64,000 nt of DNA from Caballeronia sp. SBC1 (GTDB lineage Bacteria; Pseudomonadota; Gammaproteobacteria; Burkholderiales; Burkholderiaceae): contig NZ_CP049156.1 of NCBI RefSeq assembly GCF_011493005.1, positions 2,976,001 to 3,040,000 of the forward strand, in the 5' to 3' direction. Shown here piece after piece: positions 1 to 12,923 of the stretch. The translations under genes were made by a program, and so were the position numbers. Numbering within the stretch: position 1 is the first letter of the stretch; each line of letters begins with the position of its first letter. The notes beneath the pieces were generated by a model. It made no database searches, was not told the origin of the DNA, and saw nothing but the letters and a program-made list of their open reading frames with translations.

Positions 1-196
1 CATGGATGAACGGCAGATAGGCATCGATCTGCGAGGGCCGCAGCACTGGGCCAATCCGGGGCAGTCCAGCCTGCGCCAGCACGCGCTGGACGGTGCCGCG
101 GTTGACGTGTAACTGGCGCGCGATGGTGCCACAGCGCCACTTCTCGACATGGTAGTAGCGCAGGATCTGCGCTTCGAGTTCAACTCCGATGGTCAT
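1..196 (-). CDS. IS21-like transposase, N-terminal part (runs off left edge)
   Basis: The first 65 codons of a transposase that continues beyond the window. They contain an N-terminal helix-turn-helix (TIARQLHVNRGTVQRVLAQA), the usual DNA-binding start of IS21/IstA-type and related DDE transposases. The DDE catalytic core is not in view. The ATG overlaps the stop of the upstream Cys-rich ORF as ATGA, so the two are probably translationally coupled. Assignment to IS21 rather than another HTH-DDE family is inference from this N-terminus and its partner ORF. The IstB helper would lie outside the window. Confidence 0.7.
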   Translation of the reverse strand, partial: MTIGVELEAQILRYYHVEKWRCGTIARQLHVNRGTVQRVLAQAGLPRIGPVLRPSQIDAYLPFIH

Positions 197-642
197 GGGT
201 CACTTCCTGTGCAGTGAGTAGCAGTACGAACGTCACGAAAGACCCGACGGCGCAGTGGCCCGAGGCGTACGAAGCCCGGACAGACGCAGTGGCAGAAGTG
301 GCAATGCTCAGCCACCGGTGTGGCGCTGTTAGGTACCGCTGCTCTGGCCGCCGACGTCGTCGAAGTCGGTGCCAGTAGAGCATCGGCGGCAGGCACGGCG
401 GAACCGTGATGCGTCACTTTATTCTGGCGGCTGCGATAGCGGCGCATTCGTTGGGCGTGCGCAAACCGGCCGTGGCGACTGCGCTGATAGCGCTGAGCGG
501 CCTCGCGCAAGCTGGCCTGGCGTGAGGCCCGAGAGCAGTCGCCTTCGCAGTAAATCTGTCCGCGGTCACAACGGCGGCAAACAATGACCTGCGCCCGGCA
601 GCTGGCGCAAACAAAGAGGCGGCCTGACGCCGGCATCGGCAA
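193..642 (-). CDS. Cys-rich protein preceding the IS21-like transposase
   Basis: 149 residues with a Cys-pair N-terminus (CASC, then CRRCDRGQIYC and a further Cys) that could bind zinc, an Arg-rich middle, and a His/Cys-rich tail (HCHFCHCVC). From memory, small ORFs of this type precede IstA-like transposases in Burkholderia, Cupriavidus and Ralstonia, but I know of no assigned function. It ends in a 4-nt ATGA overlap with the transposase, so both are likely on one transcript. The start at 642 is the first ATG of an MPMP sequence, and the second ATG is an alternative. It could be a transposition accessory factor or a regulator. Confidence 0.6.
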   Translation of the reverse strand: MPMPASGRLFVCASCRAQVIVCRRCDRGQIYCEGDCSRASRQASLREAAQRYQRSRHGRFAHAQRMRRYRSRQNKVTHHGSAVPAADALLAPTSTTSAARAAVPNSATPVAEHCHFCHCVCPGFVRLGPLRRRVFRDVRTATHCTGSDP

Positions 643-731
643 TCCCCGTCAATGCCGATGCGATATCGACAGGGCTGACGGGGCATGCAATACTTTGCAG
701 GCACCGTACCCCGTCGTGCGCGTGCTGGGCT

Positions 732-987
732 CGACACCGGATTGGACCTGGCAGTTTAGGCCGGTGTCGGGCCTGTTTCTTCGGCGGTAAGCCTTCTTCT
801 ACCGCATCCAGACCCCTGCGTCACCCCTTCCTGAAACGAGCCGCGCCGGGTGCGTCTGCACTCGCCCTTCGGGCTCCTTTCGACGCACCCGATACCGCCC
901 ATCGATGCCGTCGACAACAAGCACCGAACAGTTCTGCAGAACAGGAATCGTTTCGCATTTCTGATCGACGCCGCCATCCGGTGTCGG
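732..987. repeat. Repeated CCGGTGTCGG motif in the IS21-like end region
   Basis: CGACACCGG at 732-740 is inverted against CCGGTGTCG at 761-769. The ten-base CCGGTGTCGG recurs at 761-770 and 978-987. The outermost copy lies where the recombinase reading frame to the right stops resembling its family. This fits the several transposase-binding repeats found at IS21-family ends and puts the IS end near 980-1000. The exact terminus and target duplication cannot be fixed here. Confidence 0.45.
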
Positions 988-2107
988 ATTCTGATCGCCG
1001 TTCACACCCAATCGCTCGAAATGCTTCCCCAAACTCTTCCGAGATATGCTGGAGGGTCAGCGGTTCACCGTTGTCGACTCGCACGAAAAGGAATTCACAT
1101 CTTTTCCTTTTTGGCACTTTTGCATCGTCGAGGAGATGTTCACGACCTCCAGTGATGTAGTCGTTGACCATCCGGCACCAAAGAAGGCTTATCGGCTTCT
1201 TGAACGCATTGCCAAACTTCTGAACTGAGGGACGTATCAAAATTTTCGTCTCACCCCTCGCAGCAGCTTTTGCAATTTCTTTATCGGAAAAATCGTCGAC
1301 CGTGAGGCTTTGAAGCGCATTTCGCCGCCAACCAGTACAGTGCGCAAGGCGCAGCATCAACACGTTTCTCTCCGCAACCGCCGGGGTTCGATTTTGTCGG
1401 AACCAGACAATCAGCGCCTCAACGTCATCTTCTGTCGCCCAATACTGGTTCTGTGATGTTCGCGACCCCTCGCCGACCTGGGAGAAGCACTTAGGGTAAA
1501 GACGCTTGCTCGAAAAGGTCTTCAACGTGCCGTCCCGCTTCGCTTCAACAATAACGCTTCGAATTCGGAAGCCTCGTCCGCTTCCTATGACCTTCTCACA
1601 AAGGCGGCATTCCTCCTGTGCCCACCAGTAGAAATCGTAAAGAACCCTCATTCGATAATTCGCTGTACGCTTCGCTGATAAGTCGTTGCGGCATCGAGGG
1701 TCCTTCTCGATTTCACTAAGAACCCAATCACGGAAAACAGCGAAATGGTTATCGTCGAACTCGGTCCATTCAATCCCTGATGCTGCGAGGTACCGCGAAA
1801 GTGCCTGGAGAGCATACGCTACCTGTTCGATACCGGAGTCGTATGCCTGGGAGCCAGTCGGAGAATTCTTATCAAGTAGATTGCGGGCGCTGTAGAGGGC
1901 GTATTGATTAAACGCGTCGATGCGCTGGAGCTTAGAGTCCCGAAAAATCGGCACTCGACGGTCTTCGCGAAACATAACCATCCGCATACTGGGGTCGAAG
2001 ACTCGCTTAGCTCTCGACGCCGATAGACCGACCACCTTAACCAGATAAGCCTCCGTCGTGGTTGGAGCAATTGCTAAGCTAGGCTGGTCTCGACCGGTAC
2101 GTGCCAT
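821..2107 (-). pseudogene. Tyrosine recombinase C of the trio, 3' end lost to the IS21-like insertion
   Basis: The N-terminal SAM-like and early catalytic parts of a tyrosine recombinase, including the first catalytic Arg in CTGWRRNALQSL (about residue 261 from the MARTGR start). The C-terminal box with the second Arg, the His and the Tyr nucleophile is absent. After about residue 370 (near position 1000) the frame becomes low-complexity Arg/Ser sequence that looks like IS DNA. It is the last gene of the leftward island operon and overlaps the end of the RecD2-like gene by about 29 nt. As it stands it cannot be catalytic. Starts at 2119 and 2107 are both possible, and I prefer 2107. Confidence 0.7.
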
Positions 2108-4142
2108 CTTCGACCTCACTTTTCCATTTACCCAGACAACCAGCTGACTTCAGCAACTGGTTAGTGCCTACTACTATCGTCGCCGAGGCCGAACATGAAG
2201 TCGCGAGAGTGACGGCGCTGACTGCCAGGAAACGCCTATCGGCCAAAAGGAGAATGACGAATTCGACGCGCGGTTGAATTGGCTCGTTGTACGAGCTTGA
2301 ATACCCAAGCCGTAGCAACGAAAGCTCACTTTTCCGAATCTGGACTTCGCCAACGCAATCAAAGCAAACCACCATTGCCAGTTCATGTACTCCACCCTCA
2401 TCATCGAATTCAACTCGACCGCGCTTGAACACTTCACGAACCTGCCCTCGCGCGCCGCGTAAAAGCCGGCGACGGAAGTTGTTGCCATTCCAGATAACGA
2501 AATCGCCATTTGTCGCAAACTGTTGCCGCGACAGCGCCGCGAGTTCACACGGCAAAGACTGGTACTGTCTTGCATCAATGTTCTCGTTGTGAAACTGCCG
2601 ATTTATCTCGTTCGCCGCGCCCCGGGTCATGGTCATGAAGAGCGTTTCGCCGACCGAAGAACACATGCGAAACTGCCTGCACGCGATGTCATACCCTTCT
2701 TGATGGTGGCTCGCTTGGAGGTAGAGCCTAACGATATGACTCTCTCCATTTAAAGCTCTACGTAGCGTTTCCGGAGAGCAGAGGTCGAGCGTCGTTTCGG
2801 TCCATTTCACTGTAGTCTTTCTCGTGCTCGCGGACTGAATGGCACTGGTTCCTAAAAACTTTAGGCTCACGTTATCTTGAAGATGCGAGTCGACCGCGAA
2901 TGGTGCATATAGAATTAGAACTATCCGGTCAACCGAGCTGAGACGACGCAGGAGAGCATGCAACACAGTGAAGCTCAGAAGAGAGGCGTCGTAAACTACG
3001 GCGACGTGGAAGGAGCCTAGCGCCTCGATTCCCGACGCTAACACCTCCTGTACGGAACTCCGCGCGCTGCTCTCCGGAACACGCACTCTCCGGGAGATGC
3101 TGTCCGACCCACACAGATGTAGGATATGACGCCCATCCGCCACTGGGCGTAATGCCGTTATTCCCTCCGCATCTTCACAAGCAAGTATCTGGAGCTCGGG
3201 CGCGGTTCCGAGTTCGGTGAGCAGAATGTCCTTGTCAAAGGTACCCACTAAATGACGCCGACTATTTACAACCTGGACAAAGGATTTCTCAAGCATCGCG
3301 GCGCCGAGGCCTTGGATAAGGCTATTTCTTACGGGCATGCAGTACTGAACCGACTTACCCTTTACGGTTTCCCTGATAGCCAATGCTGCCTCAGCATTGT
3401 CGTCAAGCAAGCGGGAAACTCTACGCTCTACGTCTTCACGTTTCACTCTTAAAAAGCCGAGTGCAGCAGCATCGTTGAGCACCTTTACGCATGCTGCGAG
3501 GCGTCTGCGCTTCGATTTCGGTTTGACTCCGAACACATCCCTCGCCATGCGGTCGACGGGCCCCCAAGTGTCGAAGGGCGTCAAGCAGTAGGGGTCGCTC
3601 TCTACTCTGCTCTCTAAGGCTCGTCCCCACATCTCATAGGCTCTTTGCACTGTTTGGAACGACAGGTTGTTACGTATTGCCCATCCTTCTATCCAAACCT
3701 GTTCACAATACTGTGCCCACCCACGGATAAGAGTCTCAGATTGCCGTCGTGTCAGCCCGTGAGCAATGAGCGCCTCCGAGTCGTACGAATCCAGAATCAG
3801 GAAAAGTCGGGTATTTGTCCTTCGCCATATCTCGGAAATCGCAAGACGACCAATCCCAGTGAAGAACGGATGATATTCAACTAGCGAAACGATTTGCTCA
3901 CCTTGTGGCAACACACGAAATACCGAGTTGGCCACAAGCTGCAGTCCATAGACCGTTTCCTCGTAGGTTCCGAGCACTTCGACTACCTCACCGAGCCAAG
4001 GCGCATCCCTCAGGACGCGAAAGGACGCTTTGACTCGTACCCCGCCGACCGACGCACCTCCCTTAATCCGGAAAATGGCACCTCCAAATGGGCCATGACT
4101 TGTGACTTTGTTAACAGTGCCTACCAACCGAGCGGACCTCAT
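2079..4142 (-). CDS. RecD2-like protein with degenerate helicase motifs
   Basis: 687 residues from the ATG that overlaps the preceding stop as ATGA. The architecture follows RecD2 helicases: an N-terminal OB-like region, helix-hairpin-helix repeats (FFTGIGRLAISEIW near 97, then HGLTRRQSETLI), the YCLTPFDTWGPVDRMARDVFG segment near 190, and a C-terminal part where GDFVIWNGNNFRRRLLRGARG (split here for length near 550-570) matches the RecD2 GDxVxxxxNNY...FNGDxG motif. The ATPase motifs are eroded. At the Walker A site the sequence is HLCGSDSISRR with no GxxGxGKT. The Walker B DEAS reads YDAS (near 389). The motif VI QGS region reads SCSAS. I infer a non-hydrolysing structural or DNA-binding role in recombination. 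It could also be a decaying gene, but the frame is fully open. Confidence 0.6.
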   Translation of the reverse strand: MRSARLVGTVNKVTSHGPFGGAIFRIKGGASVGGVRVKASFRVLRDAPWLGEVVEVLGTYEETVYGLQLVANSVFRVLPQGEQIVSLVEYHPFFTGIGRLAISEIWRRTNTRLFLILDSYDSEALIAHGLTRRQSETLIRGWAQYCEQVWIEGWAIRNNLSFQTVQRAYEMWGRALESRVESDPYCLTPFDTWGPVDRMARDVFGVKPKSKRRRLAACVKVLNDAAALGFLRVKREDVERRVSRLLDDNAEAALAIRETVKGKSVQYCMPVRNSLIQGLGAAMLEKSFVQVVNSRRHLVGTFDKDILLTELGTAPELQILACEDAEGITALRPVADGRHILHLCGSDSISRRVRVPESSARSSVQEVLASGIEALGSFHVAVVYDASLLSFTVLHALLRRLSSVDRIVLILYAPFAVDSHLQDNVSLKFLGTSAIQSASTRKTTVKWTETTLDLCSPETLRRALNGESHIVRLYLQASHHQEGYDIACRQFRMCSSVGETLFMTMTRGAANEINRQFHNENIDARQYQSLPCELAALSRQQFATNGDFVIWNGNNFRRRLLRGARGQVREVFKRGRVEFDDEGGVHELAMVVCFDCVGEVQIRKSELSLLRLGYSSSYNEPIQPRVEFVILLLADRRFLAVSAVTLATSCSASATIVVGTNQLLKSAGCLGKWKSEVEDGTYRSRPA

Positions 4143-4507
4143 TCCGGAATCCATGTTGCAAATTCCTCCAGGTAAGACAGTCTCGATAGCTTGCGACGCG
4201 CCACTGCAAGCTCAGCAAGAAGGTCACATTTCTCCTCGCGGGTGCCCTCCGATACAAAGCTCTTGTGCGAGCGACTCGGCGCCGGCGAGTGCAAGCGAAG
4301 TCGTAAATCAAGACCATCAAGCAGAGCACGGATTTCCGCATTGCTGCCTACAGAAGATGCGGGGACTCCCACAATCTTACAAACCTTTTGGCGGCTCACC
4401 GTTCCAAATTGGTTTAGAGGCAACTCAGCCAATGGTGTGTTCTCAATCCACTCTGACAGTCGCTTCGCATTTCTGCCAGCCTTGTCTCGATTCGACATTG
4501 TGGTCAT
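4139..4507 (-). CDS. Small helix-turn-helix protein of the recombinase island
   Basis: 122 residues. The first half has a winged-helix or HTH look (VSRQKVCKIVGVPASSV followed by a helical segment). The second half is charged and helical, including EEKCDLLAELAVARRKLSRL. Its ATG overlaps the upstream coiled-coil stop by 4 nt and its stop overlaps the RecD2-like ATG by 4 nt, so it is inside the operon. By size and position it resembles the small fourth protein of GInt operons or TnpC of Tn554, which bind DNA and help integration. I see no firm sequence match, so the role is inference. Confidence 0.55.
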   Translation of the reverse strand: MTTMSNRDKAGRNAKRLSEWIENTPLAELPLNQFGTVSRQKVCKIVGVPASSVGSNAEIRALLDGLDLRLRLHSPAPSRSHKSFVSEGTREEKCDLLAELAVARRKLSRLSYLEEFATWIPE

Positions 4508-5124
4508 GACTTCTCCAGTTTCGCGTCTCGAAGTCCCGTCACGTTGTGCAAAGAAGACGAAAGGTCCGCGTTCCTCTTCTCTAACTGCTTGATGCGTTCC
4601 TGGAGTTGTTGCTCGTTGTACAACCGAGTCGACTTCTCGCTTTGAAGGTCGTCACGCGCCTCAGTTATTCCGTCCAACAAGATGGCAATCTCCGTTTCCT
4701 GCTGCTTAATTAGGCTGCGCTGCCACGCGCGTTCGCTGAGTAGTCTTCTTATGAGGTTGGACTTATTTGCGTGCAAGAGTTGACGTTGAGCTCGCTTGAG
4801 AAGCGTCTCAAACAGGCTTATGACGAGCGACTTCGATGCCGAATGATACGGTTGGTCCAGAGTACCCCGACTCGGTCCACGGAATTCAAGATGTTCCGAC
4901 TCGCGAACAAACTTTGAATTCTGGCTACCGTCCCATGTCGTGAATGCGCTGATGCTGGTCGGAAAGTACTCAAGCACGAGTTCACCATCTCTGTCCCTCA
5001 GCGGCTGCCCGTCGTCAAGCGCTCTCCAAGGTATTGCACGCACCCACCGTTTAAGGACGTCAATCTTCTTATTGATTGTTTCCTCAGCTCGCTGCTTCCC
5101 TACGATAGAAATCAGCTCAGGCAT
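4504..5124 (-). CDS. Coiled-coil accessory protein of the recombinase island
   Basis: 206 residues. The N-terminal half is of unknown fold, with a Trp-rich segment (KRWVRAIPWRAL). From about residue 120 to the end it is a long heptad-rich coiled coil (KQQETEIAILLDGI through QLQERIKQLEKRNADL). It overlaps the recombinase B stop by 8 nt and the next ATG by 4 nt. A coiled-coil protein beside tyrosine recombinases suggests a bridging or DNA-organising partner, but I recognise no named family and it could equally be a regulator. Confidence 0.5.
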   Translation of the reverse strand: MPELISIVGKQRAEETINKKIDVLKRWVRAIPWRALDDGQPLRDRDGELVLEYFPTSISAFTTWDGSQNSKFVRESEHLEFRGPSRGTLDQPYHSASKSLVISLFETLLKRAQRQLLHANKSNLIRRLLSERAWQRSLIKQQETEIAILLDGITEARDDLQSEKSTRLYNEQQLQERIKQLEKRNADLSSSLHNVTGLRDAKLEKS

Positions 5125-7168
5125 ACGTTTTCTCCTGAAACATAATTGGCTTCCACGTATCTACCAAGCGACCGACAAATTTCTGCATCTCCGTCGCAGT
5201 TTTCAACTCTGAGTCCAGAACCGCTCTCAGTCCATCGGCAGCGTCCCGTGCTGCTAATTGCAGTTTCAATGGACGACGCGTGTCACCGGCAGCGGCCATC
5301 AAAGAGGCGATTTCCAACTCTACAGCGGAGCGGTGACTCGGCGTGGTGATAGCGTGAATACAGCCAGCACACAGTTCGGCGCTAGCCTTTTCGGGACATA
5401 CTCGACTTTCGTTAGGGCTATAGCAGTTCGCTTGGCGTTTCGTTTTATTCGCGCAGCCCGCTGCACAAGTCGTATTCGCCTTCGGTACCGGGGAATAGCC
5501 TTCCTCCTCCGCGACCTCCCGCGTCTGCCTCGCCCTTTCCTCCATTGAGGCCTCCTTGAACGAAGCTCTCGACTCCAAACTTCGTGCGATTCTCGCGACG
5601 ATTCGAGAGAAATGACCTCCAACGCTCTCGCCACTAAGAATCTGAAGAATCTTCTTCTCGAAATATTCTGAGCGCTCCTCCTCGAGAATTGAGTCGAATG
5701 CCGCATCTTCCAAATCAACCAGAGGAAAGAGCGACTCAACGCTTCGACCATCTTCCGTATCTTTGGCGTCCTCTGTGTACACCCGAGTCGTCTCGAGGGT
5801 GATATGGCAAAGATGCCGGCTCAGAGCCATTAAAATAGGATGGTCATGCCTATACATGTATATCAAGGCGAAGCACCGGCGGTATATATGCGATGCAGTG
5901 CTTTTTTTAACTGATACGTTTAACTTCGAAAAGAAGAACTTTGCCACTCGGTCGAACGCCCATTCGGACGCTTTGCCTTCGAACGAAGCATAGGTGAAGT
6001 TGCGAAAAACAAACAACTTGTCCTTGCGCGCCGACCGGACGTCGCTAGCCGATTCCAAAAGCGGCGCGCCGAGAGGACGAAAAACTTGTCCAAGTCGCTC
6101 AAGGACATCTACAGCTCGCTCCACCACCTCGTTTGCCCACATCGTGACATAGCACTGGAGCGTTTTCTCCACATAGATGTCCAGATATGAGCCACTGTCT
6201 TGACCTTCTGCGGCCGTCAAGCACCCGCGGTATAGTCCATACGATTTCCCAAATCCAATCACCTCTTCCCGCCGACGTCCATGATTGAAAAGGACCGAAA
6301 TTGCGCAAGAAATCTGTAGTTGCAGAATCAGAGTACGGAGACTGAATCCCTCCTCCTTAACGAGGGAGGGGAGTCCCTCCGGGAGGTCAAACGTTCGTGC
6401 AATTTCTTTGTACTTCTCGTGCACCCTGCGAGTTATGGTCCTCCTCGCCACGTTCGGATGAACCGACTTAAGATGGTCCGACTCCAAGTGGGCCCGAGCA
6501 ACTTCGCACAGTTGGATTACACCGTCTGCTCGGACGTAGGTCCATTTGAGCGCCTCGGAGAAGATAGTTACAACATCATCGATGCTCAAATTTTCAGTGC
6601 GCTTATCTTCCTTACCTAAGAGCGATTTCGCACGGGCTAAGGGTGCGGGAAAGGGACGAGTCTTGAATGAGTCAAAGCCGGGAACGAGCGCACAGCGATT
6701 CAAGAATTTAAGTGATACATACAAGCTGTTCTGTGTTACATGGGGTGCCTGCGTGGCCCGCTCAAGCTTCTTTGCCGAACCCGAGGCCTTGAAAATTTGA
6801 GTCACGATGTTCCGCGGAATAAATACTGACTCAATCGGCAGATGAACTTGCGAACGGATAAAATCGATGTTGAGATGAAAGAAGCGGGTTTGGAGTGCCC
6901 CTTCAAGAGACCTAGCAAAATCACCGTCACGTTGTGCCCTTTCGATGAGCGCGTTCAGGCGACCGCTGTAATCCAGCACACCCCACCAACCCTTTTTTGC
7001 GAGTTCCTTAGCTAGTTTTTCGAGTAGCTTCGGTTCAACCTGTTCCAGCTTATATCGACCGCATCTGAACATCCATGCTACGAGGCGAATGAAAGTTCTT
7101 ACGGTCCTAACAGCCACGCCCCAGACATCACCACGATGCGAATTGTGGCAGTCCTCATTGACGAGCAT
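5117..7168 (-). CDS. Tyrosine recombinase B of the trio, with a C-terminal Cys cluster
   Basis: 683 residues as annotated. Catalytic residues can be placed: Arg I in NHGRRREEV (298-300), H-x-x-R in ASHIYRRC (about 427-430), His 455 in RHLCHITLE and Tyr 464 in TTRVYTE. It should therefore cleave and rejoin DNA through Tyr 464. After the catalytic domain there is a Cys-rich cluster (about 568-603, starting CAAGC and ending CAGC) that looks zinc-binding. The frame stays open upstream of the ATG (residues reading NRPTGKASVHKTPIK and on) right up to the IS30 element. The true N-terminus therefore probably lies beyond that insertion, in the 8354-8587 fragment. Confidence 0.7.
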   Translation of the reverse strand: MLVNEDCHNSHRGDVWGVAVRTVRTFIRLVAWMFRCGRYKLEQVEPKLLEKLAKELAKKGWWGVLDYSGRLNALIERAQRDGDFARSLEGALQTRFFHLNIDFIRSQVHLPIESVFIPRNIVTQIFKASGSAKKLERATQAPHVTQNSLYVSLKFLNRCALVPGFDSFKTRPFPAPLARAKSLLGKEDKRTENLSIDDVVTIFSEALKWTYVRADGVIQLCEVARAHLESDHLKSVHPNVARRTITRRVHEKYKEIARTFDLPEGLPSLVKEEGFSLRTLILQLQISCAISVLFNHGRRREEVIGFGKSYGLYRGCLTAAEGQDSGSYLDIYVEKTLQCYVTMWANEVVERAVDVLERLGQVFRPLGAPLLESASDVRSARKDKLFVFRNFTYASFEGKASEWAFDRVAKFFFSKLNVSVKKSTASHIYRRCFALIYMYRHDHPILMALSRHLCHITLETTRVYTEDAKDTEDGRSVESLFPLVDLEDAAFDSILEEERSEYFEKKILQILSGESVGGHFSRIVARIARSLESRASFKEASMEERARQTREVAEEEGYSPVPKANTTCAAGCANKTKRQANCYSPNESRVCPEKASAELCAGCIHAITTPSHRSAVELEIASLMAAAGDTRRPLKLQLAARDAADGLRAVLDSELKTATEMQKFVGRLVDTWKPIMFQEKTYA

Positions 7169-7249
7169 TTTTAAAGTGTCAAATAGTCGAGGATGGTCTA
7201 TTAACTTTATCGGAGTCTTATGGACGCTCGCTTTTCCGGTAGGGCGGTT

Positions 7250-8317
7250 TCAAGCGTGAAGTGCAACACCAGCAATGAGATCTTGCTTGAGTTGAGAGAA
7301 GACTTCGTGGGGAGACTGGAAGCCGAGGATTTTGCGAGGGCGGTGGTTCAGGGCATGCTCAATGGCAGTGAGTTCCTGATGCGAGACGTCGCTCAAGTCC
7401 ATACCTTTGGGTAGGAATTCGCGGATCAGGCCGTTGGCGTTTTCGTTGGTACCGCGCTGCCAGGGGCTGTGGGCATCGCAGAAGAAGATGTTCATATGCA
7501 GGCGTTTGCTCAGGGTTTCGTGCATTGCCATCTCTGAGCCCTGATCATAGGTCATGGTTTTGCGCAAACTCTCAGGAATGCTTTTGAGTCGGCGATGAAA
7601 GCCTTCAAGGACATCTGGCGCGGTGCCCCCGTCAAGCTTGACCAGCATGACATAACGGCTTGTTCGCTCGACAAGGGTACCGACCGAAGAGCGGTTCATA
7701 GCCCCCTTGATGAGGTCGCCTTCCCAATGACCCGGGACGATGCGTGCGGCCACCTCCGGCGGGCGCAGGTCGATGGAGGTCATGTTGGGCAGACGGCTCT
7801 TGCGCACGCTGCCACGAGCGCGAGGCAGGCGCGTCTTGTGACTCTTACGCAGCAGGTCGATCAACTCCGCTCGCAGCGTGCCCCGAGGCATAGCGTAGAT
7901 GGCGCAGTAGATCGTCTCATGTGAGACCGCGAGCGGCTGCTCGGGCAAGGCTGGCTCAGCCGAGGACGCAGCATAGTTCATGTCCCGTAGTTTGCCCGCG
8001 ATCTGCTCGGGAGACCAGTGACAACGCAGCCCGCTGAGCACCATGCGCCAGAGCGGTGTCTGCGTGTCGGCACCCAGCTTACGTCGAGCGGCACTGGCGC
8101 TCGCACGCCGGGCGCGGCAGCGCAGATGAGCGCTCCCGGCTTGGTAGCCACTGGCCTGGGCCGTAGGATGGAGCTTGCCGCGGCTAATCTCCCTGCTGAT
8201 GGACGAGTGATTCAAACTCAGTTGCCGGGCAATTGCCCGGCAACTGAGTTTGGCTTGGAGTAAGGCCTGGATCGACATGCGATCAGCCGCGGTCAAGTGC
8301 GAGTAGTGGGTTCCCAT
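7250..8317 (-). CDS. IS30-family transposase
   Basis: 355 residues with the IS30 layout: N-terminal HTH (SCRAIARQLSLNHSSISREI), then a DDE catalytic domain with Asp in PGHWEGDLIKG, Asp in TMTYDQGSEM and Glu in NENANGLIREF. The start at 8317 gives the usual MGTHYSHLTAADR beginning. The last codons run through the terminal repeat and the stop TGA at 7250-7252 lies just outside it, so the frame appears to end in flanking DNA. The gene is full-length and looks active. It separates recombinase B from its likely 5' end. Confidence 0.9.
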   Translation of the reverse strand: MGTHYSHLTAADRMSIQALLQAKLSCRAIARQLSLNHSSISREISRGKLHPTAQASGYQAGSAHLRCRARRASASAARRKLGADTQTPLWRMVLSGLRCHWSPEQIAGKLRDMNYAASSAEPALPEQPLAVSHETIYCAIYAMPRGTLRAELIDLLRKSHKTRLPRARGSVRKSRLPNMTSIDLRPPEVAARIVPGHWEGDLIKGAMNRSSVGTLVERTSRYVMLVKLDGGTAPDVLEGFHRRLKSIPESLRKTMTYDQGSEMAMHETLSKRLHMNIFFCDAHSPWQRGTNENANGLIREFLPKGMDLSDVSHQELTAIEHALNHRPRKILGFQSPHEVFSQLKQDLIAGVALHA

Positions 8318-8356
8318 TTGTGCAGCACCTTACAGGACGTAGGCTGTTGCACTTCA
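7257..8356 (-). mobile_element. IS30-family insertion sequence
   Basis: About 1.1 kb bounded by inverted copies of TGAAGTGCAACA (7257-7268 and 8345-8356). Outside this 12-bp match the two flanks no longer agree, so these are taken as the ends. I cannot identify a target duplication by eye. It contains one transposase gene. Confidence 0.7.
8213..8252. repeat. Perfect 40-bp palindrome inside the IS30 transposase gene
   Basis: Two 20-base arms, perfectly complementary with no loop, centred between 8232 and 8233. They lie in codons for the HTH region (around KLSCRAIARQLSL). The match stops exactly at both ends. In mRNA this would form a long hairpin roughly 65-105 nt after the start codon. Confidence 0.9.
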
Positions 8357-8587
8357 AAATTGATCGCGCCTAGCGTCTATCTCAGTTGACCCACTGAACA
8401 GAAGCTTTTTCTCAGCGACTTCCGAGTTATGGCTTGCTACGTTCAGCCATATCTCCGAGTCATCCCAATCGCTGAGGTATCGCTCGTGCCTCCTTTGTCG
8501 CAACGGGTCGCACTCGCTGCCGGAGGAGTGATTGCAAGCTTCACCTCCAAACATTTGCTTCCGGAAGGCTCCTCTGCCGTTTGCCAT
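8354..8587 (-). pseudogene. Probable 5' fragment of recombinase B, cut by IS30
   Basis: 77 codons beginning MANGRGAFRKQ, 4 nt after the stop of recombinase A and preceded by GAGGTGAG as a ribosome site. The frame runs into the IS30 end and stops there. The downstream recombinase B frame is open right up to the other IS end. The simplest reading is one gene split by the insertion. I could not prove the exact frame join because the IS boundaries are uncertain by a few bases. It might instead be a separate small gene. Confidence 0.45.
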
Positions 8588-8591
8588 CGAC

Positions 8592-10907
8592 TCACCTCAT
8601 TCTAAGAAACGATGAAAATGGGCTACTCTTCAATAATCTGTAAAGAGCGGCACAGAAAACGATGCGCGGCAAATGGTATTCAAGGAACCGAACTTCGTTA
8701 AATGATTTAAGAAAGCCAAGATTTTCCGAATAGTATTTCTGTTGCTCTATGCAATGAATTGCGTCGGCCTCAGTGATGTCTATATTCGTAGCTCCCGCTG
8801 ATGCCAGCCACTGGTCCACATGACTATTAGAATTTTCGCTAGAGAAAGGAGAGAGGGGAAACAACAGGCGCTTTGCAGCCTTCGATTCACTGCTTTCATC
8901 TAGGGTTATTGCGCCTGTGACCCATCGAATCGATTTCGCTAGCACTCGCATGAACCGACGGATGTTCGCCTCATGAAGCAAGGACAGGCTTTTCAACTTA
9001 ATATATCGCGCGGTGGTTGCCAGACTTGCATGACCGGCCTTCACTTGCACTAGAATAATATCTCCACTGCCAACCAGATAAGCGTGATTTAAGCTCAACG
9101 TACGATAATCCCTTATCGTTAAACGCGCGAGTCCGTTTTCACGCAAAAATATCTCTAATTCGGCAGCAAAGCGTCCCATTTTCGCAATTCTGCGACTATC
9201 GTTCCGAAGTAAAAGTGGGCAGAATAGCGAGGCGGTTCCCCGCAGGGCGAATAGGCTAACGTTCTTGCTGTGCCATAATAAAAGTTCGACGGCGCGACAA
9301 GAGAGTGCGTCTTCCGCACGATGTTCGACAAGCTCGTCCTCTTGACTCTGGTCCGTCTTTGGTTTGATGCTCGTCAATTTATAGCCGCTGCCTGTTTTTC
9401 GGACTCGCGACTCGGTCAGTAATGCGAGCGTCGACCCGTTCCAGCCAGTTTTCAGAAGCAAAATCACGAAACACGCGACAATAGAGCGATGCGTCAGGTA
9501 GAACTGGGAGAGTGCGGCGTCAAAAGCATAACCAGCAGATGGTTGAAGCCCGTAACTCAGTAAAAGCTGTGATAAACCAAACCCCTTGTTTTTGGCGCAT
9601 GCTGTCTCATACATACGTTTATCATGTACCGAAGACACCAGGAACCAGTCTAACGCTTCTTGAGAAAGCCGTTTCATCGTGGCATACGAGGGTCCTCGTC
9701 CAGCCCTGTATCCGTCCAACAGCGTCGGGGTTATTGAATTCGGCGGTGCCTTTTCGAGAATTGCATTCAATTTTTGAACACACTCCTCTTGTTCGTTAAG
9801 GACCTGCTGGCACACTATTAAATACTTATCTATATGTGCTCGAAGTTCCGCAGATGCCTTCGCGAACCCATCATCATCTGAATTTACTGAAATCAATTTC
9901 AAAAAATCAATAGCTGAACTGATTTCGCGATTTTCCCTTCTTTTATTGACATCGCTCACGTCCTTTGAAGGCTCATAAACTTCACTATAGCAACCGGTGG
10001 CCGCGTCAATGAAAGTTTGCCCTGTAGCAAGGCGTGCCAGGTTGTACATCAAAATTTTCTTAAAACCACGAAACAGGTGCTGGCGGCTTTTAATGTGTGG
10101 GATAGCACTGTCCGCAAGCCAGAAAAGTCGAGAAATGTCGGCTGCACTCAGCAACGCAGTCGGAGTCGAAAGAAGTTCACGCGATTCGTCAGATTTCGTC
10201 ATAAAACGCAGCGCCTGCAGGAAAGGCCCGAAGTCCGATTTGTTCAACGTTTCGGGTGCGTCGGCCAGTGCTTCCGAAAGAACCCCTCCCCTTTTTATCC
10301 CAAGTGATTCAAGATTGACTACGCCACGTCCATTTAAAGTATGGCCATTGGAGTTGCCTCGTAGGTGAAAGATTCGGATATTGCCCTGAGTGTCGGGTTT
10401 AATTTTTGCAAAGTATTCCACTTTCTGCTCTGCTACAGATTTCCCATCCGACAGTGGTGATTTGCAATAGGCCAATAAAGTCGCAAACATCTTTAGTTTT
10501 TCGCTCCCTCCTTGTAGCTGTGTTGCTGATTTCTCCGCTAGAGAGAAGATTGTTGCGACATCCGCACTCGTTAGGTTTTGGGACGGTCTTGAAAGTAAGG
10601 TTATTCCTAATTCGTGTGTGGTCACTTTTCCCAATACAGAAACGAACCCTTTAAACACAGAGTCCGATATGACATCGGGCAAATCGCGAATTGACTGGGC
10701 CAAAATCCCGAACGAGCTCAGTTCGAATTCGTCGAGGCGGAGCGCGCGAGTGTGACTCGTATGGCCGGTTCTGGTTGACGACCACGTAGAAACATCGAAG
10801 GCCGACGTTGAGACTTTGCGCCCGTTCTGTTCCGCGTCGACTTTGGCGACCCAGTTGGTTTGAGAAGCAGGCCCTGGAATGAAACCCGTTGCCTTACCGT
10901 TCGCCAT
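8592..10907 (-). CDS. Tyrosine recombinase A of the trio, Arg I position substituted
   Basis: 771 residues, first gene of the island operon, with GGAGG correctly spaced before the ATG. A long N-terminal region without recognised domains (1-450) is followed by a C-terminal recombinase domain: IRDYRTLSL (Arg 602), KAGHASLATTARYI with His 626 and Tyr 635. At the Arg I position, where the family has TGxR, this protein reads TGWNGSTLALL, so residue 490 is Asn. If aligned correctly, one catalytic Arg is missing and the protein may act only as a partner of the other two recombinases. It lies next to the island end at about 11000, a usual place for integrase genes. Confidence 0.65.
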   Translation of the reverse strand: MANGKATGFIPGPASQTNWVAKVDAEQNGRKVSTSAFDVSTWSSTRTGHTSHTRALRLDEFELSSFGILAQSIRDLPDVISDSVFKGFVSVLGKVTTHELGITLLSRPSQNLTSADVATIFSLAEKSATQLQGGSEKLKMFATLLAYCKSPLSDGKSVAEQKVEYFAKIKPDTQGNIRIFHLRGNSNGHTLNGRGVVNLESLGIKRGGVLSEALADAPETLNKSDFGPFLQALRFMTKSDESRELLSTPTALLSAADISRLFWLADSAIPHIKSRQHLFRGFKKILMYNLARLATGQTFIDAATGCYSEVYEPSKDVSDVNKRRENREISSAIDFLKLISVNSDDDGFAKASAELRAHIDKYLIVCQQVLNEQEECVQKLNAILEKAPPNSITPTLLDGYRAGRGPSYATMKRLSQEALDWFLVSSVHDKRMYETACAKNKGFGLSQLLLSYGLQPSAGYAFDAALSQFYLTHRSIVACFVILLLKTGWNGSTLALLTESRVRKTGSGYKLTSIKPKTDQSQEDELVEHRAEDALSCRAVELLLWHSKNVSLFALRGTASLFCPLLLRNDSRRIAKMGRFAAELEIFLRENGLARLTIRDYRTLSLNHAYLVGSGDIILVQVKAGHASLATTARYIKLKSLSLLHEANIRRFMRVLAKSIRWVTGAITLDESSESKAAKRLLFPLSPFSSENSNSHVDQWLASAGATNIDITEADAIHCIEQQKYYSENLGFLKSFNEVRFLEYHLPRIVFCAALYRLLKSSPFSSFLRMR

Positions 10908-10949
10908 GCAGACCTCCGGGATGGATGGTTGCCTGACGGGGGTTATAGG

Positions 10950-11234
10950 TCATTCGTTCAGTAAGTCAAGCTCCTTCATCCTACATAAAAGGACGTACTC
11001 ACCGCGAGAGTGTTTCTTGAGGTAGAGCGGCATGGCCCCGGTCAACTTGTCGTCACGTTTGAGCAGCAGGAAATGCGGCCGCCAGCCGGTGCGGGCGACA
11101 GCGCAGCCCGTGTCCTGCAACGCCGTCAGGAATTCGTGGCGGACGAAGGGGTTGTCACCGGCGAGACGGTTCCATTCATCCGGAGTCACGGAATCGAGCG
11201 AATCGACCACATGTATTTCGACCTTGCGGTTCAA
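10950..11234 (-). pseudogene. 5' fragment of a FemAB/GNAT-like (DUF482) gene cut by the island
   Basis: The N-terminal part reads like the peptidogalycan biosynthesis/GNAT family: VTPDEWNRLAGDNPFVRHEFL, then GWRPHFLLLKRDDKLTGAMPLYLKKHS. The family normally continues from HSxGEYV for almost 300 more residues. Here the frame after GEYV becomes unrelated (LLCRMKELDLLNE) and stops. The break falls at about 10990-11005 and marks the right edge of the recombinase island. The start is probably TTG at 11234, with an AGCGAGG ribosome site. The missing 3' part is not in this window. Confidence 0.65.
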
Positions 11235-11414
11235 CAGGCTTACCTCGCTTCAGGCTTGTTCGGGCTGAGTGCCGGGCGCTTGGTGCAGCGCGGAACAGTT
11301 ATTCTCGCCGAAGTCGCGGGATTTTGTTCGAAGGGATTCGTGGCCGGGGCTTGAGGGATAATGCGCGACATCCGTTTCTCACCCTGTATCTCACCCTTTT
11401 CCCAAGCTTTCTCC

Positions 11415-11729
11415 ATGCCCTGGTTCCTGTACCTCATCGAATGCGCCGACGGCAGTCTCTATACCGGGATTGCTACGGATGTTGCTGCGCGGTTCGCGAA
11501 GCATGCGAGCGGCGATGGCGCAAGATATACCCGATCGCGTAAGCCCGTGGCCGTGCGCGCTTCGTTTGAGCTGAGTGGCCGGGCAGAAGCGTCGCGTGCC
11601 GAGTACTGGGTGAAGCGATTACCAGCGGCGCGGAAATGGAAGTTGGTACGGGGAGATCTGGAATTGGCAGCAATAATGCCGGCCGTGGAAGTGGAAGCCG
11701 ACTCCAGCACTCACGCCGAAGCGCGATAA
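11415..11729 (+). CDS. GIY-YIG domain protein (YhbQ-like)
   Basis: 104 residues from the ATG at 11415, chosen because the family begins MPWFLYLIEC. GIY-YIG motif halves are LYLIECADGSLYTGI, followed by RFAKHASGDGARYTRS and AEYWVKRL. These small single-domain GIY-YIG proteins are widespread. Their nuclease role is predicted, and in most cases the biological role is unknown. It stands alone on the plus strand between two broken genes, facing away from the FemAB fragment. A longer upstream start exists in frame but adds residues with no family support. Confidence 0.85.
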   Translation: MPWFLYLIECADGSLYTGIATDVAARFAKHASGDGARYTRSRKPVAVRASFELSGRAEASRAEYWVKRLPAARKWKLVRGDLELAAIMPAVEVEADSSTHAEAR

Positions 11730-11860
11730 GCGATGCACCCCGGGCGCTCACCACGTTGCGGTTAACAAGCGGCAGCATTCAGACCGCTGACTCACGATCA
11801 ACACAATCAGCTTCTGCGCCAACGATCGAAACCCGTTGGCGCAGAACCGTCTTTCTGCTT

Positions 11861-12757
11861 TTAAAGTGGAGTCGTCGTCAAAATGCCGCCGCCGACTGCC
11901 AAAGCAGAACTTCCCAGTAATTTCCCACTGTCGCCACGTGCAAATGAGGTGAGTCCGGACTCTGAACTGGCCATGCCAATTTTTGCCCAGTTCAGTTCAC
12001 CGTCCTTTGTGTCGTAGACGTCACCGAACATCTCGAGTGCGAATCCGTACGCCGGGGTGATGCAAAGAAGATCCGTGATACGCGTGGTATCCGGAATCGT
12101 CAATGCACTCCATGTCACACCGCCGTCGATGCTCTTCAGCACAGGGCCGGAAGTTCTGTTCCAGATCGGAGCCGACGCATATCCGGTTTTAGCATCGACG
12201 AAAAACAGACTGCGTCCGAACGCAACTCGTCAAAAAACGGACTGGCGCCCAAATGCCACTCTGGATCCGGTATCTGAGCGGACGTCCACGTTGTTCCACC
12301 GTCGGTCGTCCTCCCAATCTGCATCTTCGAAACGAGGTCGGTGCCCAAAATCCATCCATCACGCGCATCAATTGCATGCGTCGGGCGTCCATCAGAGTAT
12401 CCGCTTGGAAACTGCACGTTTTACCGCCGTCGATCGTGTTCACCACAATCCCAGCGGCACTAACAATCCATCCGTTTTGACCAACAAATTGAACTGCTCG
12501 GATGCATCGACCTTCGAGGGGTACACTCAAACGGACGTTTTCCCAAGAAACGCCTCCATCCGAGGAGTGCATAACGCCAGCATAGGTAAAATCAAGTCGC
12601 GATCCGCCTTCGACTGGAAGCAATTTCTGCTGCGGACAACCGACGACCCATACCTTCTTGTTGTCAGCGACTGCGATGTCGCCAAAGCCTGCACCGCCCT
12701 TGCCGTCATCGTCCTTCGGCAGCATCAGTGTTGGCCACCGTTATCAGTCGACTTCAC
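11861..12757 (-). pseudogene. BNR/Ycf48-like repeat protein, frameshifted
   Basis: Several BNR-type repeats are visible but lie in different frames: KSTDNGGQH near 12735, HSSDGGVSWENV near 12540, then GRTTDGGTTWTSAQ near 12300 and KSIDGGVTWSALT near 12120. At least three frame changes separate them (near 12730, 12415 and 12170). The family consists of beta-propeller proteins. No intact start remains, because the 5' end is fused to the dam fragment. Not functional. Confidence 0.7.
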
Positions 12758-12923
12758 GTCGTTCGGGACTTCGACCTCCGCCGGTGGCCGCATAAAGAAG
12801 AGCACCTCGGCACCCGCGAAGACCTCAACGTAGCAGCTGTGCGCAGGAAAATCGCGGAATCAGGATGTCGGCGAGACGTCGCTTGCCACCAACCCATGGA
12901 ACAATCGGTATCGCCATGGTCAT
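12758..12923 (-). pseudogene. Dam-type DNA adenine methyltransferase, 5' fragment, frameshifted
   Basis: Starts MTMAIPIVPWVGGKRRLADI, the WxGGKR motif of phage-type D12 class N6-adenine methyltransferases. It continues after a one-base slip in a run of T (near 12848) as PAHSCYVEVFAGAEVLFFM, matching the family's second conserved block. The rest, including the DPPY catalytic motif, is gone, and the sequence passes directly into the BNR remnant. The start has a GAGGTG ribosome site 12 nt after the relaxase stop, so it was once the last gene of the conjugation operon. Confidence 0.7.

Follow-up and report, generated by a model that had tools for sequence, protein, structure and literature searches.

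The window analyzed here is a 64,000-nt stretch of Caballeronia sp. SBC1 (contig NZ_CP049156.1, positions 2,976,001 to 3,040,000 of the forward strand), which carries on its minus strand a gene for a RecD2-like pseudo-helicase (2079..4142) within a cluster of tyrosine-recombinase-like genes belonging to a genomic island. With moderate confidence, we interpret the encoded protein, a RecD2 relative that lacks motifs I, II, III, V and VI of the helicase ATPase, as a component of the island's recombination complex that binds DNA but is no motor. Such a protein would bind and hold strands or branched DNA.

A RecD2-like protein without helicase ATPase motifs

The open reading frame (ORF) of this gene runs uninterrupted on the minus strand over 2079-4154 (691 amino acids, aa) and overlaps both neighboring ORFs, as a preliminary description of this DNA had stated. 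The gene assignment drew on the ORF list, Pfam, NCBIfam, alignments and structure prediction. We preferred a start at 4142 over 4154 because it matches M5, which is invariant across nine aligned proteins, and makes the gene overlap the ORF upstream of it (4139-4507) by 4 nt. An alignment of 29 rows shows no helicase motif I, Ia, II, III, V or VI in the window protein; its Walker A columns read ILACEDAEG, its Walker B columns read YDAS, and its QGS columns fall within SSSYNEPIQPRV. The preliminary description was right that all ATPase motifs are altered and that YDAS stands at Walker B, but the strings that it had assigned to Walker A and QGS belong elsewhere: HLCGSDSISRR sits on motif Ia and SCSAS on motif VI.

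The loss is shared by relatives. Nine full-length proteins of this dead type were compared, namely those of the window, P0003 (Caballeronia; 47% identity, 673 aa) and genomes G049, G320, G480, G490, G509, G518 and G554, with a fragment from G369 (the tenth row) excluded. All nine frames are open (666-723 aa), and the other eight proteins are 20-47% identical to that of the window. GxGKT (motif I), DE (motif II) and QGS (motif V) are absent in 9/9 of them and kept in 19/19 of the other complete rows of the alignment, which comprise seven annotated plasmid records, nine genome loci (eight beside a VPA1267-like gene) and three housekeeping RecD2s.

Protein searches, covering about 5.8 billion proteins with 7993 candidates scored each time, returned three dead-type matches: the window's own protein, a 98% fragment and P0003. 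Genome searches added the seven other members, and the relatives from both kinds of search ruled out that the protein is confined to the window's genome. Because G049, G480 and other members were missed in the protein searches, absence from those searches means little. Dead members occurred in 2/58 genomes of the window's genus and in 6/144 of a second genus, which are minimum counts since weak or second matches in the genus searches were not all read. An order-wide search gave a match at E ≤ 0.001 in 53/399 genomes, the four best besides the window's own genome being all intact. A genome-contig scan with P0003 as query found no relative, and one with the intact P. caribensis protein found one distant Bryobacterales locus. 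In a third genus, a decayed remnant is present at L034 (G369) 6915-12905, where FemAB-like pieces flank fragments of the RecD-like gene and of recombinase-like gene A.

The kinship with RecD2 appears, at the level of sequence, to be real but sub-threshold. The NCBIfam RecD2 helicase model TIGR01448 scores 44 bits over residues 55-262 of the window protein and does not reach its curated cut-off of 500. Of the RecD2 landmarks named in the preliminary description, the segments YCLTPFDTWG and GDFVIWNGNNF do align with RecD2, and the helix-hairpin-helix (HHH) family HHH_RecD2 of Pfam scores 24.6 bits against a cut-off of 27. HHH_RecD2 is above cut-off in P0003, G049, G320, G480 and G509, reaches 26.7 bits in G490, is not listed for G518, and is found at E ≤ 0.01 in 8/9 full-length dead-type proteins. 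Structure prediction suggests that the window protein keeps an SSB/PriB-like OB fold (1-82), an HHH region (~161-231) and an SH3-like insert around two degenerate RecA-like lobes; OB, HHH and SH3-like parts are those that usually contact DNA.

Selection on the dead form

The RecD-like proteins of G480 and G554 are 93.6% identical, with 62 synonymous and 48 nonsynonymous changes between their genes, which gives a ratio of nonsynonymous to synonymous rates (dN/dS) of 0.256 (bootstrap 0.17-0.38). The ratio is 0.235 over the first 300 codons and 0.271 (0.16-0.46) over the remaining 398 codons, and the latter value, from one pair, indicates that the former motor half is constrained despite its lost active site. 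Between the same two genomes, the cluster neighbors gave 0.257 for C, 0.336 for D1, 0.327 for D2 and 0.059 for E. The preliminary description had held the gene to be selected rather than decayed, and the core motif loss common to its homologues and this ratio below 1 both bear it out. Recent decay of the dead group was ruled out on the same two grounds, the ratio being well below 1 in one pair.

We further compared mean pairwise identities within eight dead proteins (G554 excluded as a near copy) and eleven intact ones. The dead proteins are 25.7% identical before motif I, against 27.7% for the intact proteins; the corresponding values are 17.7% and 41.1% in the 1A region, and 22.8% and 35.7% in 2A plus SH3. 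In a full-length tree, the nine dead proteins form one group (100/100) on long branches. An N-terminal tree was weaker, with housekeeping RecD2s falling among the dead group and no clean separation. Both trees are uncertain because of the long branches.

A cluster with three recombinase-like genes at a FemAB-like site

The gene order A, C, D1, D2, RecD, E is common to eight loci (window, G049, G320, G480, G490, G509, G518 and G554); neither DNA nor a locus was found for P0003, so gene context is known for 8/9 full-length members. In the island of the window, gene A abuts the 5' fragment of a host FemAB-like gene (PF04339 by Pfam; 10995..11234, minus strand), which is split at codon ~95 and whose 3' part lies ~107 kb off at G000:C1:2878566-2879462. 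Just after gene E, in opposite orientation, stands a full-length diverged FemAB-like gene (G000:C1:2972057-2973217; L036 15844-17124). This arrangement of a split host gene plus a full-length diverged copy was found in 8/8 cluster-bearing genomes, G509 having one further short FemAB-like match. The two host fragments are 107.5 kb apart in the window's genome, 115.5 kb in G049, 122.1 kb in G490, 42.7 kb in G320, 159.3 kb in G480 and 50.0 kb in G509; the pieces are on separate contigs in G518 and G554. Within the window's genus, the triple FemAB pattern occurs in 2/58 genomes, the same two that carry the cluster, while two genomes gave no match and in two others a single decayed gene lies in neighboring pieces. 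Within the second genus it occurs in 6/141 genomes, again the same six with the cluster, and one more genome has two adjacent pieces.

The left island junction of the window (10983..11000, minus strand) consists of host GAGTAC, a variable 6 bp (GTCCTT) and the element end TTATGT. All seven left junctions read have host GARTAY, six variable bases and then TTATGT (6/7) or ATATGT (1/7). All six right junctions read have ACATAN (five) or ACCTAT (one) as the element end, after which the host continues with GTNTTCGAC; the left junction of G554 and the right junctions of G518 and G554 are outside these counts. Native genes at the insertion place, located in five of the eight tried, read GARTACGTNTTC, one of them being a perfect 12-bp palindrome. 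All junctions read thus share one position, GARTAY / GTNTTC, in a single gene. A variable 6-bp footprint is described for SEs and Tn554 in the available text of PMC10214605. Given the variable 6-bp stretch at one end, the element likely moves, by analogy, through an SE/Tn554-type tyrosine-recombinase reaction, and the island is likely mobile.

The spare FemAB copy did not arise by duplication of the FemAB-like gene native to its host but has a separate history, as judged from its identities and its synonymous divergence (dS). The spare copy of G480 is 51-57% identical to native genes of the second genus, except in two genomes (70-73%), and that of G049 is 70-74% identical to native genes of the first genus, decayed genes aside; island FemAB copies are 74-92% identical to these two query copies. 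Between G480 and G554, dS is 1.66 for the spare copies versus 0.08-0.17 for the operon genes, so the spare gene did not travel unchanged with the operon. The spare copy may restore FemAB function.

Cargo of the island includes a type I restriction-modification system (L036 14-5377) with HsdM near the locus edge, HsdS and HsdR, as annotated by PADLOC. A small gene near the FemAB copy looks alike by eye in the islands of the window (L036 14150-14818) and G049 (L008 18627-19238); PADLOC gave no match for the L036 gene.

Cluster genes and insertions in the window copy

The cluster genes of the window all lie on the minus strand. Gene A (8592..10907, 771 aa) is tyrosine-recombinase-like, with a GHASLATTARY box recognized by eye. 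Gene C has a tyrosine-recombinase-like 3' part at 5117..7242 (ORF 5117-7168; from the ORF list and alignment) and a severed 5' part at 8371..8599, whose start is approximate. D1 (4504..5124, 206 aa) belongs to no Pfam family and is 34% identical to its L008 counterpart. D2 (4139..4507, 122 aa) is weakly VPA1267-like: against a cut-off of 90, it scores 28.9 bits in the window, 28.5 in G509 and 23.7 in G320, with no score in G049 (L008). The 5' part of E (1008..2119; from the ORF list and alignment) represents a third recombinase-like gene. By eye, R/H/Y boxes of the tyrosine-recombinase type are present in A, C and E of most of seven aligned loci (window, G049, G320, G480, G490, G509 and G518), the histidine not being seen in A of G320 and in C and E of G518. 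In Pfam, Phage_integrase was below cut-off for E of the window and of G509, and A and C matched no family. In G554, C and D1 are separated by an additional D1-like ORF and gene A is cut at the contig edge; G480 has space for such an ORF in the same place.

The tyrosine-recombinase operon of the preliminary description is correct as to kind, but in the window two of its genes are interrupted, C by an IS30-family insertion and E by one with IS21-type genes. The IS30-family insertion (7243..8370, minus strand; transposase 7250-8317) was recognized by an NCBIfam match and 26-bp imperfect inverted repeats. The break in gene E, at about 1007, is due to an insertion whose inner end occupies 1..1007 (minus strand) and which continues beyond the left window edge, with IS21-type genes (istB by Pfam) just outside the window; a remnant of the 3' part of E, with the tyrosine, lies at G000:C1:2973226-2973684 and resumes near the 5' break. 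With genes C and E broken, the window holds a damaged representative of a cluster that occurs in intact form in other genomes. A stretch of the Paraburkholderia plasmid pOLGA1 (L141) matches the inner end of the insertion in E at 95% identity; the plasmid counterpart is itself broken by about 6 kb containing a site-specific integrase and three hypothetical genes.

Proposed role and alternative explanations

In gamma-mobile-trio (GMT) operons, an ATP-driven helicase encoded in the same slot would handle the DNA intermediate, single-stranded or branched, of a Tn554/SE-like recombination biased toward one strand. In the dead branch, the RecD2-like protein would bind that DNA and present it to recombinases A, C and E and to the small proteins D1 and D2, with no unwinding.

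Several observations weigh against this interpretation. The window's own machinery is probably not working, since its genes C and E are broken, and the dN/dS values are drawn from the single close pair G480/G554. A fold prediction from just three dead-type rows gave a predicted local distance difference test score (pLDDT) of 39, so the RecD2-like structural model leans on the RecD2 homologues supplied; the top Foldseek TM-score of the predicted model was 0.47 (by query length). The motif loss is graded, with motif III partly kept in G049 and G509 and motif VI partly in G509, and the G509 protein matches AAA_30 at 33.2 bits (cut-off 27). Full-length dead members were found only in the two genera and as P0003. 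Among the dead members, the G509 copy (L061 9336-11423) is the least degraded, and it may be close to the transition from the intact to the dead type, as suggested by its AAA_30 match above cut-off and its retained parts of motifs III and VI.

Other roles for the protein can be envisaged. It might be a regulatory or targeting subunit rather than a strand scaffold, for example one that sets directionality or site choice by sensing the FemAB target or the replication state. Some subunit must recognize the FemAB site, because all junctions read share that place, and OB and HHH regions are predicted in the dead protein; however, nothing ties the protein to the insertion site, and tyrosine recombinases usually recognize their own sites, which leaves this role rather unlikely in our view. 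It seems improbable that the protein is a partner subunit that dimerizes with an active RecD2-like ATPase of the host or of another element and tunes that ATPase: other genomes of the same family do have intact RecD2-like ATPases beside VPA1267-like genes, but none of the loci read had the intact and dead kinds side by side.

We give still less credence to the idea that the protein retains an NTPase or nuclease activity of an unusual kind, carried by residues beyond the classical motifs. Such an activity would fit a dN/dS in the former motor half about as low as that of the N-terminal part, and the partial motif III of G049 and G509, yet the GxGKT, DE and QGS residues are gone in all nine proteins and few columns of the C-terminal part are invariant. 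To regard the gene as a decaying pseudogene, open by chance, would be far-fetched, and for the group as a whole such a reading is unlikely. Its neighbors C and E are indeed broken by insertions in the window, but nine open frames of 666-723 aa (the other eight at 20-47% identity to the window's), a dN/dS of 0.26 with an upper bound of 0.38 in one pair, and a core motif loss common to all nine argue against it.

It is about an even chance that these are a distinct class of self-rescuing Burkholderiaceae islands, which would use one near-palindromic FemAB-like site, carry a diverged spare copy and have an obligate ATPase-dead RecD2 as the structural core of a three-recombinase machine, the helicase of a GMT-like ancestor having become a passive subunit that holds DNA. 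The system bears on the need of some tyrosine-recombinase islands for three recombinases and helpers, and on how the 6-bp footprint arises. Operons of this kind that differ in whether the RecD2-like protein is intact or dead provide a natural experiment, and comparing them could show which step needs ATP-driven unwinding and which just a DNA-binding body. The FemAB site together with the spare gene offers a simple marker for finding such islands.

Comparison with known systems

Like the window, SE, Tn554 and GInt elements have several recombinases and a small protein; SE and Tn554 also share a 6-bp footprint (available text of PMC10214605), and GInt shares single-site insertion with cargo (available text of PMC5385486). 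The likeness is drawn from these descriptions, and gene order differs: GInt has contiguous ginABC and then ginD, the window A-C-D1-D2-RecD-E. The word "helicase" is absent from the available main text of both papers. From RecD2 of Deinococcus radiodurans (PDB 3e1s / 3gp8) the window protein differs in having no Walker A, Walker B or QGS and in scoring below the curated cut-off. PriA is a host replication-restart protein, not a mobile-element part, and its helicase family differs from that of RecD2. The D. radiodurans PriA is, like the window protein, a bacterial helicase-family protein, and it is called a pseudohelicase in the available text of PMC4504706.

The preliminary description had stated that no recombinase-trio element is described with such a protein. 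This is wrong for the intact form, because a Klebsiella plasmid carries GmtY, GmtZ, GmtX and VPA1267 and after them an intact AAA family ATPase belonging to the RecD2-like family, and intact RecD2-like ATPases stand near recombinase-like and small genes in V. vulnificus, Rhodovastum, Bradyrhizobium and Rhizobium loci. The earlier interpretation thus holds in part: the dead motifs and the selection stand, and the novelty claim falls for the intact form. The passages of the open-access GMT literature that we consulted make no mention of an adjoining ATPase, and in the open-access texts available to us we met no description of a dead RecD2-like form in such elements.

The Alteromonas mediterranea pAMCP48-600 element (L042) resembles the window in gene order by size and annotation, and its C and E are 31% and 23% identical to those of the window. 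An intact RecD2-like ATPase and an integrase are among its last three genes, and it differs from the window in its intact ATPase motifs; by blastp, its first and small genes had no match to A, D1 and D2 of the window. NCBIfam models for GmtY, GmtZ and GmtX found no match in A, C, D1 and E of the window, with 553, 1055 and 255 bits in the Klebsiella control. The VPA1267-family gene beside the trio is an association seen in L038, not part of the published definition. The gamma-mobile-trio shares with the window recombinases, two small proteins and a RecD2-like protein encoded in that order by overlapping or abutting genes, D2 of the window being weakly VPA1267-like. The two differ in that the ATPase is intact in GMT and dead in the window, and in that the window type, which is inserted at a FemAB-like site, has E as a third recombinase-like gene following the RecD2-like one.
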